64,000 bases of DNA from Prototheca cutis. Lineage: Eukaryota > Chlorophyta > Trebouxiophyceae > Chlorellales > Chlorellaceae. The translations under genes were made by a program, and so were the position numbers. Positions 24,101 to 49,200 of the stretch are shown here, piece after piece. Under the pieces are notes generated by a model, which was given only the letters and a program-made list of their open reading frames with translations, did no database searches and was not told the origin of the DNA. Every line of letters begins with the position of its first letter. Positions within the stretch are counted from its first letter, which is position 1. The stretch is from assembly GCA_002897115.2 (NCBI GenBank), contig BCIH01000008.1, positions 1,016,980 through 1,080,979 of the forward strand, read 5' to 3'.

Positions 24101-27100
24101 CCACCGCAGCTCCGCCGGCGGTGGCGACGATGGCGTCAGCGCTGACGCGGGGTCGCACACGTCCGACCTCGACGCGCTTTCTTCCAGTCTGACGGCGCTG
24201 TATGCCTCCAGTTCATCGTGGCCCCTGCCCGCGGTGCAGGGCCTGGTGGCGGGGCTCTGCGAGGCGTCGCTCGAGGAGCTGGTTGGGCGCGAGGTTCGAG
24301 CCGGGGGTGGTCCTGGCCGAGCGCCCGTGGACGAGCGGGTGGCGATGGGCGGGAGCTCGGTCGACGCACGTGATGGCTCCACGACGACGGCTATGGCGAC
24401 CATGCACATGCAGCATGCGCATGCGACAGCTGGCCCACACCTGAGTGGCGGCAGCGGCAGTGCCAGCAACAACCCCATGCCTCTCTCGACAGGCAACCGC
24501 CCCCTCGCGCTGGGCCGGCTGGCGGACGTTCTCTTAGCCAACGCAGCCCGGCTGGAGGAACTCTGGGCGCTGTTCCTGGGTCACGTGCTGGAGGTGCGGG
24601 CGAGGGGCGCGCCGGGTGCCCGCATCGCCGCGGTCGAGGCCCTTGGTGCCGTCATTGTGGGAACCCTGTCCCGACAAGCGGCTGTGGCTGCGGCGGGCGA
24701 CGGCGTGGACGAGGCGGCAGTAGTTGACGACCCCGCATCTACAGCCGTCGCTGGCAATGCCAGCGACAGAGCACCAGGGCCCCCCCGCCACCCAACCCAT
24801 GTCGTGGACGAGAACGAGCGGAGCGAGGGCCTGGAGCAGATGCTGCTGGCTGCCTTGGAAAGCGTGCATGGCGACGAGCGCGATCCAGAGGTCCGGCGCG
24901 CCGCGCTGCGGGTGCTCCTGGGCGTCCTGCGGCGATGCGGCGAGCGCCTGGGCGGCGGCTGGGCGGCCGCGCTACGCCTGCTGGCTGGCGTCCCCGGCGA
25001 CGGCGACATGGCCGCGCTGGACCTGGGGTTCCAGGCCGTGCAGCTCGTGGCGGGGGACCACGCGTCGGCGCTGCCGGCGCCCGCGCTGCGGCGCTGCCTG
25101 GAAGTCGCTTCTGCCTATGGCACGCAGCAGACGGACCTCAACATCTCTCTCACCACCATCAGCCTGCTCTGGAATGTCGCCGACGTCGTCGGACGTGGGG
25201 CACCGCTCGGGGAAGGTGGTGACGACGATGATGTGGAAAGTGCGGGCTTGGTGCCCGGTCCGGCGGCAGAGGCCACGACGACGGCGCCGCCACCAGGCAC
25301 CGTCGCCGCCCCTTTGATCACTGAAGCCTTCCCTGCACAGCCGGGCTCGCCAAGTTCGGCGGTTCGGCTCACAGCAGGTGAAGCGACGGGGATTCTGGAG
25401 CTGATTTTCGTCATGCTGCAATCACTGGCTTCGGACGTGCGGCCAGAGGTTCGAAACTCCGGGCTGAGGACTCTGTTTGCGCTGGTGTCCGCGCAGGGTA
25501 GCCGCCTGCCGCGCGCGCGGTGGGAGGCGTGCCTGTGGGAAACGCTGTTCCCGCTGCTGCGGCATGCGGTTCGCATGTCGGCGACCAGCAGTCGCGAGGA
25601 GCGGGGCCCCGCCGCACTGGGCACGCTGCGTGGCGGCGAAACCGTCACGCTCGTCGTGCATCACTCGGCCAATTCGGACGCTAAGCAGTGGGACGAGACG
25701 GTCGCGCTGGCGCTGGCAGGCATGGGCCGCCTGTTCCGGGCACAGCTCCCGCGCGTGCTGGCCTGCCCCGCGGGGCCTGCGGGCTGGGACGAGCTCATGG
25801 CCATTGTCGAGGGGTGCATCGCAGGGGCCCGCAAGCGCGTTGCATTAGCTGCGGCTGCCGTGTTGATGGCGCTGTTGAGTGCACATGGCGGCGACGCGAA
25901 TGCGCTGGATGACAGAGCCTGGAGCCGTGCGCTGCGTGCGCTGTCGGTGGCCGTGGAAGCTATCGCCACCCCGGGCTGCCGCGTGCCTTTGGCAGTCCGA
26001 CTCGAAACCATTGCCCTCGTCAAGAGTGCGGCACAGGCTGCCCGAGCAAGGGGCGATGGCGACGGCTTCAAGCAGTCGCTGCGTTGGCTGGAGCGCGCCG
26101 CGCGGCGGCCGTGGTCGGATGACGATGCGAATACCCAGTCTGTCGCCGGGGGACTGCTGCCTTCAGGAACAGCAGGTCTGCCGCCCGTCCAGCGAGCTTG
26201 TTTGGCCGCGCTGGGCGAGTTGACCCCGGAGCCGGGTGATATCGATCTCTGGTCCGAGCGCCTCAGTGTCCTAGCTGCTTTGCTCAGCCCTCACCAGATC
26301 CTGGAAGCCGCTGCAGAACGCCGCTGTCAGATGTCATGGGGCGGCGAGGGAGGACCCGACGATCACGCCGACGCCCCGGCGCCCCTGGGCCAGGGCACCA
26401 AGAACGATGCGCAGCGGCTGGTGTCCCGCGAAGGGTCCGCCCTGCGCGCCGACGCCAGTCGCGACGGCCAACCCGCGCTGTCCTCCCGTTTTTTGGATGC
26501 GGTGCGGCAGGTGGTGGTCATGGGCGGTGCTTTGGCAATTCCCTGAGTGTTTTCTGGCTTGCATGTCGTCGGGCTGTGCACAGGCACCTTCCGGCAAGGA
26601 ACTGAGAGCACCACGCCCAGAAATACCCAAAGCGATGTCACCCGCAGGTGCTGGGTGCGCTGGTCAAGGCATATGGCAATGCGCCGGGCCGGGCCCAGGC
26701 ACGGATGCTGCCAGACGTGGCGGCAGCGCTGGGCGCCTGCATGGTGGTGAGTGAACATGGGCGCGGGGGTGTTTGTTTCGGGGGTCCAGGATGTTGGTGG
26801 CTGCCGTGTCGGGAGAGAGTGCCAAAAAAATTGCAAGAAGGAAAAAAGGGGACGGGGCTGTGCTGTAAGGCAGGCGCGCTACCACTGCGCCACGGCGACG
26901 GGGGGATTTCCTGTCACCGGTCGGGTTCGAACCGACGACCGACTGCGTTCGTGTCACGGCACCCAGACCGCTAGTGCAGTTTGGAATTTCTCACGAGCTG
27001 CATTCGGTTCCGAGGGTTGTTTTGGTGGGGGGCCGGTCCATTCCGTCAGCACGTGGAGCACAGACGAGCAAACGAGCAGCACAATGCATCCCAATGGAAG

Positions 27101-28463
27101 AGATCCTTCTGAATTACACACCTGCGCCCGCATTCAATAACCGACCCTAACCTCCTCAGGTGCGGTACAGCATCCCTGAGGATGACACGTGGCGTGTGGC
27201 GGCCAAGGCCTTTGTGGCGCTGGTGCCCCTTGGGCTGGGTGCGCTGGCCGAGCAGCAGCCGGATGCCGGGCTGGAGGGCCGGACGTGGGACGCCCTGGCT
27301 GAGGCCCTGGAGGGATTCCTCCTGGCGAGTGGGGTTGTCAACATTTCGGAGAATGGGGCTGTCGGTGACGACCAGGGGCTGCCGATCGAGCCGGGCCACA
27401 TCACGCCACGCACGACCAGTGTGCCTGAAGGAGCGGCGCACGGGGGTTCCAACCCGGGCACTGGCACCGCGCCGCTGGACGTCAGGCAGGAAAGGTAGGT
27501 CTTGGGTGCGTTTCGTTGTCTGAGCTCATTGTATCGCTCCGTCCCCCCTTGGCAACCACTCACGACCCCCATCGACGTCCTGCCCACCCCCCTCGCCCCT
27601 TTGGCAGCCTGGGCTTGGCGTTGGTGTCGGCGCCGGTCACCAGCCTCCCGTTCCCGCCGCCGGCGGCTGCACTGGTGCAAGAAAGCGAGGCCAACCCGGA
27701 GCTGTCGCAGACACCATCGGACGACGAGCTTGAAATCCTGGTCCTCGATTCTTTGGCCGATTCGGTACTGGGTCTGGCAAGTGCAATGCCCGAGCCGGCA
27801 CTGGCACGGTTTGTCTCCATCATCGACCGCGGCGTATGCTGTGCGCCGGTGGTGGCCGGGGCGATGGGCGCCGCCCACCAAGGGAGTGTCGCAGCTGCAG
27901 GGCTGGCCTACTCTCAGGCCTGCCTGCGAAAGCTGTATGTCTTGGCAGCACAATGCGAGCCCGCGGGAATGGCAGAGCAAACGAGAGCATCTGCGACATT
28001 CCCGGCGGCAGTGGCAGCCCTGCGGGCGCTGCTGGCTCGTTGCACGGACATGCTCCGCGCAGCGGCGGCTGGCATGGGGTTTGGGGATGGAAATCCCGGG
28101 CCAGCTCCCAAGGAAGCCCCCACAGCACGCTACGGGGGCTATGATGGGCGCCCGCGACTGGACGAGGCGCTGTGCATGCTGGATGTCCTGGCCACACTAA
28201 CATTAGCACCCGAAGTCATCGATGCCCTGGTGCCAGAGGCCGGGGAGCGGGTCTGTCGTGTCGTAGCCCTGGCGCGGGCACTTGGCAGCCATTCTCCCCC
28301 GCCAGGGACAAAGGAACGCACGCACCTGCTGCTGGTGTACCCGGCGCTCGTGGCGGCTGTGGCGCTACCAGAGGCGAGCCTTCGCGACCGCGTGTGCGAG
28401 CTTCTGAATGCCGTTGGAGAGCAGCTTGGCCTGGCAGACGCACCGCCGGGTGCAGAGGGGTGA
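21200..28463 (+). CDS. MON2: MON2 homologue (DCB/HUS-domain trafficking regulator), 10 exons
   Basis: CDS: join(21200..21409,21663..22086,22246..22409,22563..22716,22929..23044,23219..23650,23793..26510,26648..26746,27160..27494,27608..28463), 1,835 aa; all ten exons join in frame. MON2 is a large scaffold related to BIG/GBF Arf exchange factors but lacking Sec7, acting at trans-Golgi and endosomes. N-terminal DCB block: LEADYRQLSNESRR, EIKEAAERAVLSIR, then SPRLAAHALSTAQRLV and a TAAATARQVLVLLL helix (the family has NTAAATVRQ). The centre has TDLNISLTTISLLWNVADV, very typical of MON2, followed by SDVRPEVRNSGLRTLF. The C-terminal exons continue as helical repeats (DTWRVAAKAFVALV, LAEALEGFLL). 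Low-complexity Ala/Gly insertions occur at about 24060-24480 and 25200-25320. An antisense tRNA-like gene lies in intron 8. Confidence 0.9.
26842..26947 (-). tRNA. Circularly permuted tRNA gene, probably tRNA-Val(UAC)
   Basis: On the minus strand the 3' half comes first (26947..26912) and the 5' half second (26899..26864), separated by 12 bases (26911..26900, GGAAATCCCCCC). Rejoined on paper they give a full cloverleaf. The acceptor stem is GTCGCCG with CGGTGAC (7/7, one G-U), D stem GCGC/GCGC with loop AGTGGTA, anticodon stem CCTGC/GCAGT (4/5), variable loop CGGTC, T stem GTCGG/CCGAC with loop TTCGAAC, and discriminator A. Box A (TGGCGCAGTGGT) and box B (GGTTCGAACCC) are both good. A T6 run (26847..26842) 17 bases beyond the 5' half is a Pol III terminator. 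The loop CTTACA(C) points to anticodon UAC, but the exact join is uncertain. It lies antisense within MON2 intron 8. Confidence 0.78.
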
Positions 28464-37107: not shown

Positions 37108-39326
37108 TCAAAAGCGTTCGCCGTAGTGCAGCATGACGTGCCACTTGCCCGCGTTGTTATCGCGGACGGCTTCCACACGCATGGCGGAAATTTTGACGCC
37201 CCCGCCGACAGAGGAACCAGCGCCCGCGCGCCGGAAGTAGGCGGTGGGGTTGCCACGCACTTCCTTGGACGATCCAAGGTCCGAACCGGCCTCCGCAAAG
37301 GCATAGACCGTCTTGCCCAGCACTGAAAGCCGTGCCTCGGCTGCAGCCTCGGCAAACCGGCGGCAGGCCGCGAGCTCGCCGACGTTGTACCCCCGGACCG
37401 AGTAGGGTCCGCCCAGGAGGAACGTCTCGTAGGCGGGCAGGTCGCCCAGCGCGGCACCGGCGCGGCCGTGCAGGACGAGAGTCCCCGGTCCCAGCCGGCC
37501 CTTGAGCTTGGGGCCAAACAAGCCCAGGAATCGCGTGGCGGACGCCGTCATGCGGTTGAACAGCGGCGCCCCTGTGCCGATGCCCAGACCCTGGTCGACG
37601 GTGACCACGTCCCGCGCCCCCCGCGTGGCACCGTCCCGGATGTAGGTCGTGTCGCGGACGAGCGAAGCTTGTGCGTGGACAACTCTATCGACACCGTCAG
37701 CGCCGATGGTGGTCGGAGGGCCGTCGGCAACGACGGCCCCCAGGGGGGACACGCGGCCTCCCCGAGCGCAGGGCGCACCCGTTTCGTCCCTGGTCACGAT
37801 TTCCTGGGCCACGAGCGCTACAGCGCCGCGCGATCCGCGGCCCAGCTCCTGCGTCAGGCCCACACGTGCGCCCTGGCGGTCGACCCACACGGGCGGCACC
37901 TCCTCGCCGTCGGGCCCAGGCGTGAACACGCCGCACAGCCGCCGGGCATTGAAGGCCGAGGCCTGGAGCTTGGTGCAGCGCGGGTCGCGCAGCCCCGCCA
38001 CAAACGGACGGCTGTATAAAACACGGTACGACAAGTCGTCCGCGGGGTTCAGAAAGGACTTTGTATTGACCGACGCAGCGACCATGCCCCCCCGGCCGTC
38101 AAGGTTCCGGTTTTCATAGGTAATCGTGCCGCCGGGGACAAAAGACACCAGCGACGGCCGGTTCTTTGCATCTGTGGGTTCGGGTGGGTGCGCGCGCAAA
38201 GGGTTGATCGGGGGGGGGGGGGGGGGGGGGTCGTCTGGGGACTCTGCTTGAGAAATCAAACCCTAAGACCCCATTCCACCCACCTGCAGCGAGGCCCCAC
38301 TCGGCTTCGATATCGGCGGTTTGCATGGGCTTTTCGCGGACCATGATATCGACTTCCACCTTTGTTGGGTCGCGCTCGTTCTGGCGGGGCAGGATCTGGA
38401 CGTTGTCAAACAGGTCCAGGGCAAACACGTTTTGCAGCGTGCGCCGGCCGTCGGCCAGGGAGTACAGCTGCCCCGGCTTGACGGCCGAGAACTTTTGAAT
38501 GTAGGCCGGGTCGACGTTGCCGCGGCCCTTGACGGCCGTGCCGCGCTCATTCATCCACACAACTTGCACGCGATCGGTACGTCCCTCGACCACCTCCACC
38601 ACCACGTTGCCCGAGTTCATGCCCTTGAACTGCGCGATGTACGACAGCCCGTACCCGTGTTTCTGGTACCAGCCATCGATCGCACGCTTGACCAGGGACA
38701 TATCCTGCATCGTAAAGCTGTCGCGCTTGCTGCCCACAAGCTGCCGCCGCAGGCGTGAGACGACGCCCGGCGGCAACGACTTGGCATTCTTCACCTCAAA
38801 ACTCTCGCACTTGGGATAAATCTTTTCCCGAAGCTCAAACAGCACCTGCACCATTGATTAGGTTTTTTTTGGGGAGGGGGGTCTTCCTTTTCTTGTTGGT
38901 ATTGGCCAAGGAGTTACATGCCTGAGGCTTGCCCTGTGAGGACCTGAAGACCCCACTGGGTCCTGCCTCTCACGACCAACCCCACACCACCCCATCCCGA
39001 ACTCCCCCCCCCCAAAAAACCTGCGTACCTTGAACTTGCCCTTCTTCTTGGCGGGCAGGACCTTGGCGTTGACACGCTCAAAGAGGCCCGTGGCGTAGAG
39101 CGTCTTGATGTCGGCGGCCAGCTCCTTGCGGGTGCAGACAAAGCCCGGCTGGCAGTGAAGCCCGCCAAACAGCTCCTGCTCGGTCGGTAGGCCCTCGCCC
39201 TTGGGCAGGCCCTCTGACGTGATCTCGCTGCACTCAAAGGTGTTCTCGTCACGGCGCGTCAGCATGCGATCGGCCTTCTTCAATGGCTGGGCCTCGCCAG
39301 CAAGCGTCGCTTCCCCGTCAACCTCC

Positions 39327-46295: not shown

Positions 46296-49200
46296 TCAGT
46301 GGCTGTCTTCGTCAGCTTCGCCGTCTTGCCACCCCTCATTCCTGTCCTGTTCGAGGATGTTGACCAGCCGTTGCTTGAGGTTCACCTTGGTCTCCCGTGG
46401 CTTTGACCAGCTTCCCGGCAGCAGCGCAGCCAATCCCCGGGGCGGCTCCTCAGGCTCTGCGCCGGAGTTTGGTACGGTTGATGAGTGAGGGTTGTTGCTG
46501 CTGCCTCGAGAGTTCAAGAAATCCAACCATACTCATGTCGGAATTGCATCGCATGCTCTCTGTATCTCAAAACGAATCTTGGCGACACCCTGGTCGTTTG
46601 CAGATGACGACTCCCAGGCCATGTTCTGATCTCTTCCCCCAAGAACATGCGCACACCTTCCCAGGGCTGCAGCTCGTCAACCTCCCAGACTACCACTTTC
46701 CGCGGGGGTCCGGCCAGAGCCCGCTGTTTCTGGCGCCAGCGCGCGGCCTGCAGAGGAATTGGTGGACCACTGAGAGCGACTGCATGCAAGCAACGAGGCC
46801 TCCCATCCCAATGTCATCACCCATGCACGCCGTACCGCGGGCGGGAGGTCCAACGAGGCAGCGACTAGCGCGTCCGATAAATCGTCGCCAACGGTCATTC
46901 TCTTTTTCTTCTGCTGACTGGGCAGAATGTCGGCATGGTGATGGGGGGGAGGGCCTGTGGCGTTTGACTCAGGCAAGCTCCGTTGTTCCTCTGTGGGTCT
47001 GAACCCCTCAGTTGCACGGCTCCCAGCGTGGTCCACTGCTGGTGAGGAACTGACCAATGCCCGCTGCACAACCGGGCGGTGCACTGGAACCCTTGCTGTG
47101 GTTGATGATGGCGAATTTTGAGCCCCAATGGCAGGGTTGGTCAGCGCTGGTGGGTTGACTGTGGTCGGGGCTGCCGACACCGGTGGCGGTACAGGTCTCG
47201 TCGGGGGAGCAGCAGTCGTTCTGCTCTTGAGTGGCATGGTTGTGGATCGACTGCTTTCACCAGACTCCTGGGTGGGAGGAGGAAAACTCCCCGCCGCCTC
47301 ACCCCGGCGAAGCGTGTTGGCCGCCACGCCAGAGACACCGGAGACGGGCTCGGCCTGCCTGGCCGGCATGCCCACTGGTGGCGCGGCAGAAGAAGGTGCC
47401 CGCCGTTGGCCACCCCTGCCATTACCGCTCCCACTGTCACTGCGGCTGCCAACTGTTCGATGCTGGCTGGCAGACGTACCGCCTGCGAGTGCCGACAGCT
47501 TGCTCCAGGTGGACGAGTCCAGTCTGCCTGTTTGGGGACGGGGACTTGCCGAGGATCGAGCGTCCGGCACGTCCGCTGGCCGACCAGTCGCACAACGACT
47601 GGCACTGCTCTCGTGGCCTAGCAACGGACCAGACACGATCCCTGTCAAAGGTGTGCTCCCCGCCGCGCCGCTGCTCTCGGTTTCCTCCTGCGCCTCCTGG
47701 TGGATGGCCAGCAGCGTCGCTTCCACTCTGAGTGCTGCAGGGTTTGGGGGAAATTGATGGGGTGTTTGGTGCAAAGCATGAGTCGAAATGCATGGCAGAC
47801 CTCGACCGGCCCAAGCATTGATCGACATCGCCTTTATCCACTGTTCACACCCCTTCTTCCCAAGTCCCAGGAACGTAATCAGATCCACAAAAGCCCCTCC
47901 ACAAAATGCACCTTGCTGTGATGAGCCGTTGTCGGGCAGCCGGTCGATGCAGAGCACGACGTCCTGACACTGGGGTCCAACAATCTGCGCCAATGCCCCA
48001 GCTGCAGCCTGCAGCGCCGTCCGCTCCGCTGCCTGTCGGTTTGTGGGTTTTGTGCGTGGGGGTTGTTATTTGAAGTGCTTAAAGCATCGCCATGTGTGGA
48101 GGCGCATGCAGTCCGCATGGCGGTCAGCGCATCAACTCCCGGCGCTGCACAACACCCTCCCAAACCAAAAAGAAAGCGGGGCCCCAACTGCGCAACATAC
48201 ATGGAGAGCCTGCACCGTCTTGGCATCGGTGCACGTGCCGCCAAGCATTGCTGCAGCAGAAGGCAGAGACACGCAGCAGAGCACGCCTGCCGTCGTCGGG
48301 AGGATGCCCTCTAGAAAGGGAGAATCGGCCGCCGCGCGCACCGCGTCCGATGCCAGGTGCATCAGCGCCTGAAAGATTTGGTTTCGTTCATTCGGTGGGT
48401 TCATCAACTCAAGAGGGAATGGGCGGTTCGCTGAAGGCGACCTTGTTGCAAACAACGATGGCGCCCTTACAACTTCCCCACACACATGCGAACGAGTTGT
48501 CATCGCAGTCCGTTCCCAAAGAGCGCGCATGCTGGCTCGCCAAGACCCGAAACCGTGCGTCGACCAATGGCCTTCACACCACGCACCCACCTTGGCAAGC
48601 GACAGGCGCGCAGCTTCGGGCAGGGGCATGACCGCTTGACCCCGGCCTGCAAGCGCGGTGCCGGGGCGCGTGAGCAGCTGCTGCAGCGGTGGCGAGATGA
48701 GGCGCTTGAAGTGCCGCAGTTCCCGCCCGTGCCACATCAGCGCCCCACGCTGCGACTTGAGCACCTCCTTAGCCTGTGGGTCGTTGGGGGGTGATCGGCT
48801 GAGAGTGTTTGGGTTGTTGATGGGGTTTAACGGCCCCATGACTGCCCCTCTTCCCTGGGCCCTCGCTCTCATGACGTCACGGCAAACTGCTCACCTGGAC
48901 TGCACAGAGGACGGCACGAACGGCGTGACTAAGGGCAGCGTCGGCGATGGTCATGGCCTGGCCCGCGGTCATGGGCTCGGCACCCCACCCCTGCATCAGC
49001 ACCTGCTGCTCCACGGCGGTGACAAGGTGTGCGGGGGAGCGGGCATCTTGCACGGCGCCCCGCGCCGCGACCAGTCGCGTGCTGCCCTCAAACTCAAACG
49101 GCAGTGCGAATGCTGCGACGGTAAAATGACCGGCCGCACGCAACGAATTGAGCAACTGCTGCGCCGCCGCGGTGCCGGGCCCGCCGGCCGCTGCGATGAC

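Follow-up and report, generated by a model that had tools for sequence, protein, structure and literature searches.

A probable circularly permuted tRNA-Val(UAC) gene antisense in a predicted MON2 intron of Prototheca cutis and a census of permuted tRNA genes in its genome

Permuted tRNA genes in algae

A 2014 review (PMC3978253) counts 34 permuted tRNA genes, with at most 11 in one genome and none for Val. The 11 genes of Cyanidioschyzon merolae (Soma et al. 2007, cited via PMC3978253) share with those described here the permuted halves and the T-run after the 5' half, and a circular intermediate is reported for them; they have junctions at several positions, whereas all 22 loci of the present genome are split at 37/38, the only junction sought. 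Genes of the latter kind, called type II, are known from prasinophytes and nucleomorphs (PMC3978253) and are listed in Table 1 of the review for Ostreococcus, Micromonas and the nucleomorph of Bigelowiella natans (Maruyama et al. 2010, cited via PMC3978253). They are green-algal genes which resemble ours in having the 3' half first, a 37/38 junction and a short spacer (5–64 nt in the table). As far as this table goes, the green-algal nuclear genomes of Ostreococcus and Micromonas hold 3 to 6 such genes each, whereas we found at least 22, a count that also exceeds the 11 of C. merolae. Val is absent from the table, and the tRNA-Val gene described here is nested antisense in the intron of a protein gene. 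For another nucleomorph two permuted tRNA genes are reported (PMC4494063).

The closest relative with such a report is the sister genus Auxenochlorella, as permuted tRNA genes are described for strain UTEX 250-A in two papers (PMC12636532, PMC12633428), according to which Auxenochlorella alone among Prototheca's relatives is a photosynthetic lineage. There, as here, permuted genes came to light after an ordinary tRNA search had given an incomplete set. In contrast to photosynthetic Auxenochlorella, the genome analysed here, probably that of a colourless alga, gave no match to the chlorophyll a/b-binding (light-harvesting) family; this absence is only suggestive, because exons were searched one at a time and, among 14 prokaryote controls, Synechococcus alone matched. 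For P. wickerhamii all tRNAs except Sec are reported to be encoded according to tRNAscan (PMC7941945), which says nothing certain on permuted genes in that species. In open-licence literature, a search for permuted tRNA with Chlorella or Prototheca returned only the Auxenochlorella work (PMC12636532 / PMC12633428), and 'circularly permuted' tRNA with Prototheca returned nothing. The gene type is thus already known from other algae, a single extra gene being a small addition, and what stands out more is how widespread it is in this genome.

The tRNA-Val locus and its host intron

The window, meaning the whole stretch of 64 kb that was analysed (62% GC), holds no collinear tRNA gene as it stands, neither at the locus of interest nor elsewhere, according to ARAGORN and Rfam at gathering scores. 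Read on the minus strand from 26967, the locus consists of leader, 3' half, spacer, 5' half, trailer and a T6 run beginning 17 nt past the 5' half (Table 1), which confirms the permuted order, the 12-nt spacer and the T6 of the original prediction together with their coordinates. The two halves lie on the same strand with the 3' half upstream and meet at 37/38 in the anticodon loop, as in type II genes, and the spacer falls inside the range of 1–74 nt given in the 2014 review. No CCA is encoded after A73.

Table 1: Coordinates of the tRNA-Val locus and the surrounding MON2 exons in the window.
Feature	Position	Strand	Basis
Leader TCTGGGTGCCGTGACACGAA, able to pair with trailer, putative 5' part of the transcript	26948..26967	(-)	duplex computation
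tRNA-Val 3' half, C38 to discriminator A73, first in the transcript	26947-26912	(-)	sequence, rejoining, model
B box / T loop GGTTCGAACCC, within the 3' half	26923..26933	(-)	pattern match, place C8:1043902-1043912
Intervening sequence, 12 nt, links 3' and 5' halves	26911-26900	(-)	sequence
tRNA-Val 5' half, G1 to A37, anticodon UAC close to its end	26899-26864	(-)	sequence, rejoining, model
A box TGGCGCAGTGG, within the 5' half	26882..26892	(-)	read by eye
Trailer GCACAGCCCCGTCCCC, able to pair with leader	26848..26863	(-)	duplex computation
T6 run, probably the terminator for RNA polymerase III	26847-26842	(-)	sequence
MON2 exon upstream of the intron	26648..26746	(+)	Mon2_C alignment
Predicted MON2 intron, 413 nt, GTGAGT...CCTCAG, tRNA gene inside on the opposite strand	26747..27159	(+)	splice ends, Mon2_C alignment
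Start of MON2 exon downstream of the intron, end provisional	27160..27420	(+)	Mon2_C alignment

Rejoining 26864 to 26947 gave a 72-nt tRNA that ARAGORN calls tRNA-Val(tac) with anticodon UAC, the identity that had been proposed, and its cloverleaf has the same stems as counted before: 7/7 pairs in the acceptor stem, one of them G-U, 4/4 in the D stem, 5/5 in the T stem and 4/5 in the anticodon stem, where C27.U43 is the sole mismatch and CUUACAC forms the loop. Reading by eye we also found the consensus elements U8, R15:Y48, G18G19, U33 and U54U55C56. An A at the junction on both sides leaves one base of ambiguity in the split, with an identical mature sequence. We regard a nuclear type II permuted tRNA-Val(UAC) gene, matured through a circular RNA, as very probably the right explanation of the locus, and judging from its sequence the gene is probably functional.

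According to this explanation RNA polymerase III would transcribe the locus from the leader through the 3' half, the 12-nt spacer and the 5' half to the trailer and would stop at the T6, and a duplex of leader and trailer would form beyond the anticodon loop. After cuts by the tRNA-splicing endonuclease at 37 and 38, a ligase would join A37 to C38 to give a circle, and RNase P and tRNase Z would remove the spacer, after which CCA would be added. We infer transcription, circle formation and a mature tRNA-Val by analogy with what has been published for C. merolae and green algae, while the gene anatomy, the rejoined cloverleaf, the T-run, 21 similar loci and two domains of the tRNA-splicing endonuclease (tRNA_int_endo, two places over cut-off in the genome) are observed. 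The TFIIIC B-block has one weak match in the genome (25 bits), to a family that also matches in bacteria. The 60 nt upstream of the gene contain one CAAA (at -36) and no TATA, and the 50 nt upstream are 46% AT.

The original prediction had further proposed that leader and trailer pair as expected for a bulge-helix-bulge splice site. The pairing itself is possible, its GTGC/GCAC part sitting 11 nt from C38, whereas a strict bulge-helix-bulge was not found at the junction by eye or by constrained folding. The best computed duplex combines GTG/CAC (7 nt from C38), GC/GC and GGG/CCC at -12.2 kcal/mol, so that the leader helix begins 7 nt from C38 and differs from the published hBH form. None of 13 other trailers paired as well with this leader, and 7.4% of shuffles did. 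Folded without constraint the precursor reaches -47.5 kcal/mol compared with -43.3 kcal/mol when the cloverleaf is enforced; the two structures differ, and the stability of the unconstrained fold does not exceed that of shuffles (z 0.14).

The missing strict motif and the C27.U43 mismatch would also suit a silent relic, that is a permuted tRNA gene which is no longer transcribed or spliced. We consider this improbable, as the remaining stems are all intact, the T6 is present and no second Val(UAC) gene was detected by BLAST or arm pattern, with the census of tRNA genes being a lower bound. A BLAST search of the rejoined tRNA-Val against the 19.9-Mb genome returned nothing but the gene's own two halves. 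The anticodon-arm pattern TGCYTNACACGCA occurs at three places in the genome, none with TAC, and at three in the reversed control as well; it would miss a collinear Val(UAC) gene with a different anticodon stem or an intron. One of the three places in the genome, TGCCTCACACGCA on contig C5 (203898-203910), fits the anticodon arm of a possible collinear Val(CAC).

The position of the gene antisense in a MON2 intron had also been predicted. The joined exons align to Pfam Mon2_C in one stretch across 26746/27160 (residues 16–89 of 91; E 2e-05, 23.4 bits, below the Pfam cut-off of 27), and an open frame of the same gene further upstream matches Mon2_C with 100 bits. Because both match this family, the sequence supports a predicted MON2 intron that carries the tRNA-Val gene in antisense. 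From such a position an antisense RNA might chiefly regulate MON2 and be no source of tRNA, which we hold to be very unlikely as the tRNA anatomy is complete, with boxes and T-run. Elsewhere in the window (37108-38262, minus strand) an Omp85/Toc75-like open frame has its nearest named relative, at 54% identity, in [Myrmecia] bisecta, a trebouxiophyte.

Census of permuted tRNA genes

A covariance model in permuted order was built from collinear tRNAs of the same genome after rearrangement in silico, one version (R1) including tRNA-Val in the training set and the other (R2) trained on eight other tRNAs only. The tRNA-Val locus scores 78.3 bits with R1 and, in the 64-kb window, 63.3 bits with an E-value of 1.5e-15 with R2, and because the latter is a leave-one-out model the resemblance is not due to chance. 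The only other match in the window up to E 10 (48960-49050, 16 bits) has no T-loop consensus, looks coding-like by eye and was judged to be a chance match.

A permuted-tRNA search of the genome (19.9 Mb, 23 contigs) had been proposed as a check. T-arm patterns gave the places, and the corresponding loci were then scanned with R1 in sets of 16, 30, 35 (including 10 rescans) and 14. L069, L073, L075 and L078, being one-base-shifted copies of palindromic places, were left out, and the scan took in no L001-L018, L023 or L024. This census yielded 21 permuted loci including that of the window: Val TAC, Pro TGG, Ala AGC (two), Ala TGC, Ala CGC, Ile TAT, Arg TCG, Gly TCC, Gly CCC, Gly GCC (four), Cys GCA, Gln TTG, Glu CTC, Ser CGA, Ser TGA, Leu AAG and Leu TAA. 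Once rejoined, each of the 21 is called as a tRNA by ARAGORN and has 7/7 acceptor pairs; the spacers measure 9–80 nt. For the four Ser and Leu genes we chose the junction that gives U33 and five pairs in the anticodon stem; a second junction is possible in Ser TGA and in Leu AAG, and the latter would read TAA with the junction one base off.

R1 also matched L081 and L083, which were ruled out as ARAGORN reads collinear Asp/Pro genes there. Weak matches of 14–28 bits in L019, L026, L029, L030, L034, L038, L051 and L060, as well as two of the three in L033, were likewise discarded because they overlap or adjoin collinear ARAGORN calls.

A rule-based scan looked for T arm, acceptor, D arm and anticodon stem in permuted order and then applied ARAGORN to the rejoined halves, covering the window and 109 loci (357,537 bases, with overlaps). 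Its 31 matches represent 22 distinct loci, namely the 21 of R1 and a permuted Gln(CTG) gene in L033/L009, and the reversed sequences of the window and the same 109 loci gave no match. The Gln(CTG) gene (L033, reverse strand, about 247-360, contig C12), which had been a weak R1 match (247-328, 24.5 bits) and was confirmed as permuted by the scan, has a spacer of 41 nt and a T8 starting 10 nt past the 5' half. Its spacer holds a second T-arm-like stretch (GTGGGCTCGAGTCC).

Altogether there are at least 22 permuted loci on 12 contigs with 18 anticodons (17 if L027 is Leu TAA). The count is a lower bound because T-arm places, T-arm types and junctions were covered in part: it comprises T arms fitting the patterns and 37/38 junctions, which models and scan alike were made for, 40 listed places lie outside it, and at least 100 of the 185 places of the pattern GGTTCRANYCC were listed for the census. 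This pattern was set aside as mostly noise, the control having 151 places.

An ordinary tRNA gene whose halves changed places through misassembly or a local rearrangement is still less likely than a mainly regulatory RNA, as the same 37/38 split recurs at 22 loci on 12 contigs and the same gene class is reported in Auxenochlorella. Least of all do we believe in two tRNA-like stretches alike by chance, which the weak z-score of the unconstrained fold might suggest and against which stand the E-value of a model trained without tRNA-Val and the empty rule-based scan of reversed sequence.

In all of the first 21 loci a run of four or more T begins within 20 nt past the 5' half, compared with 4.1% of 5000 random window positions, and 15 of the 21 have a run of five or more in this range; in the permuted Arg gene a T4 also lies within the spacer. 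Leaders and trailers pair better with each other than with swapped partners, as judged over 17 of these 21 loci, four repeat copies being left out. The duplex energies sum to -103.6 kcal/mol, which was matched by 2 of 10,000 swaps, or by 17 of 10,000 with Val removed; at the other two window sizes of this test 26 and 24 per 10,000 swaps were as good with Val and 51 and 84 without it. When each gene was compared with its own shuffles, only five of 14 reached the 5% level, and four of these five are copies of Gly(GCC). Pairing no better than average was seen for Pro TGG, Ala AGC, Gly TCC and Ala TGC.

Collinear tRNA genes and the share of permuted ones

An Rfam tRNA search of the genome, with 63 of 246 candidates scored, gave at least 21 matches up to E 10 and at least 17 over the cut-off. 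ARAGORN reads 17 collinear genes with 10 anticodons: Lys CTT (two), Arg ACG (two), Phe, Arg CCT, Met, Leu CAG (three), Asp (three), Pro AGG (two), Pro CGG and Leu CAA. By our own reading of the T loop the Met gene would be the initiator. The Asp, Pro and Leu(CAA) genes (L012-L018) have anticodon-loop introns of 30, 46–48 and 45 nt, respectively, which is in keeping with an active tRNA-splicing system. Three of the four sub-cut-off matches fall at permuted genes (L020, L021, L022). The fourth (L019, 1419-1557, contig C9) is tRNA-like, with a doubtful ARAGORN call of Phe(aaa) and a 59-nt intron, and may be a tRNA whose variable arm is long and whose intron is unusual. In L031 (1454-1522, contig C12) ARAGORN reports a tRNA of no assigned type with a two-base anticodon.

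The collinear set detected falls far short of a full tRNA complement, and its 10 anticodons do not overlap with those of the permuted genes. Of the tRNA genes detected, roughly half or more are permuted, with no ordinary backup detected. We think it somewhat more probable than its opposite that permutation is the commonest tRNA gene architecture here, that many isoacceptors come from permuted genes alone and no anticodon is present in both forms, and that this genome is the richest in permuted tRNA genes of those tabulated. The underlying numbers, at least 22 permuted and at least 17 ordinary genes, come from two different searches and are both lower bounds. If true, many codon families would rely on circular RNA intermediates for their translation. 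In such genomes a large part of the tRNA set can escape annotation by programs that look for collinear genes.

Such a genome makes it testable why and how permuted tRNA genes spread, as it offers many cases, the repeated Gly(GCC) gene and sister lineages for comparison. The four permuted Gly(GCC) genes (L091, 1444-1524 and 1760-1839, contig C13; L093; L094) have identical halves and differ in their spacers and leaders, two of them lying about 315 nt apart, and these copies should be useful for seeing how permuted genes duplicate.
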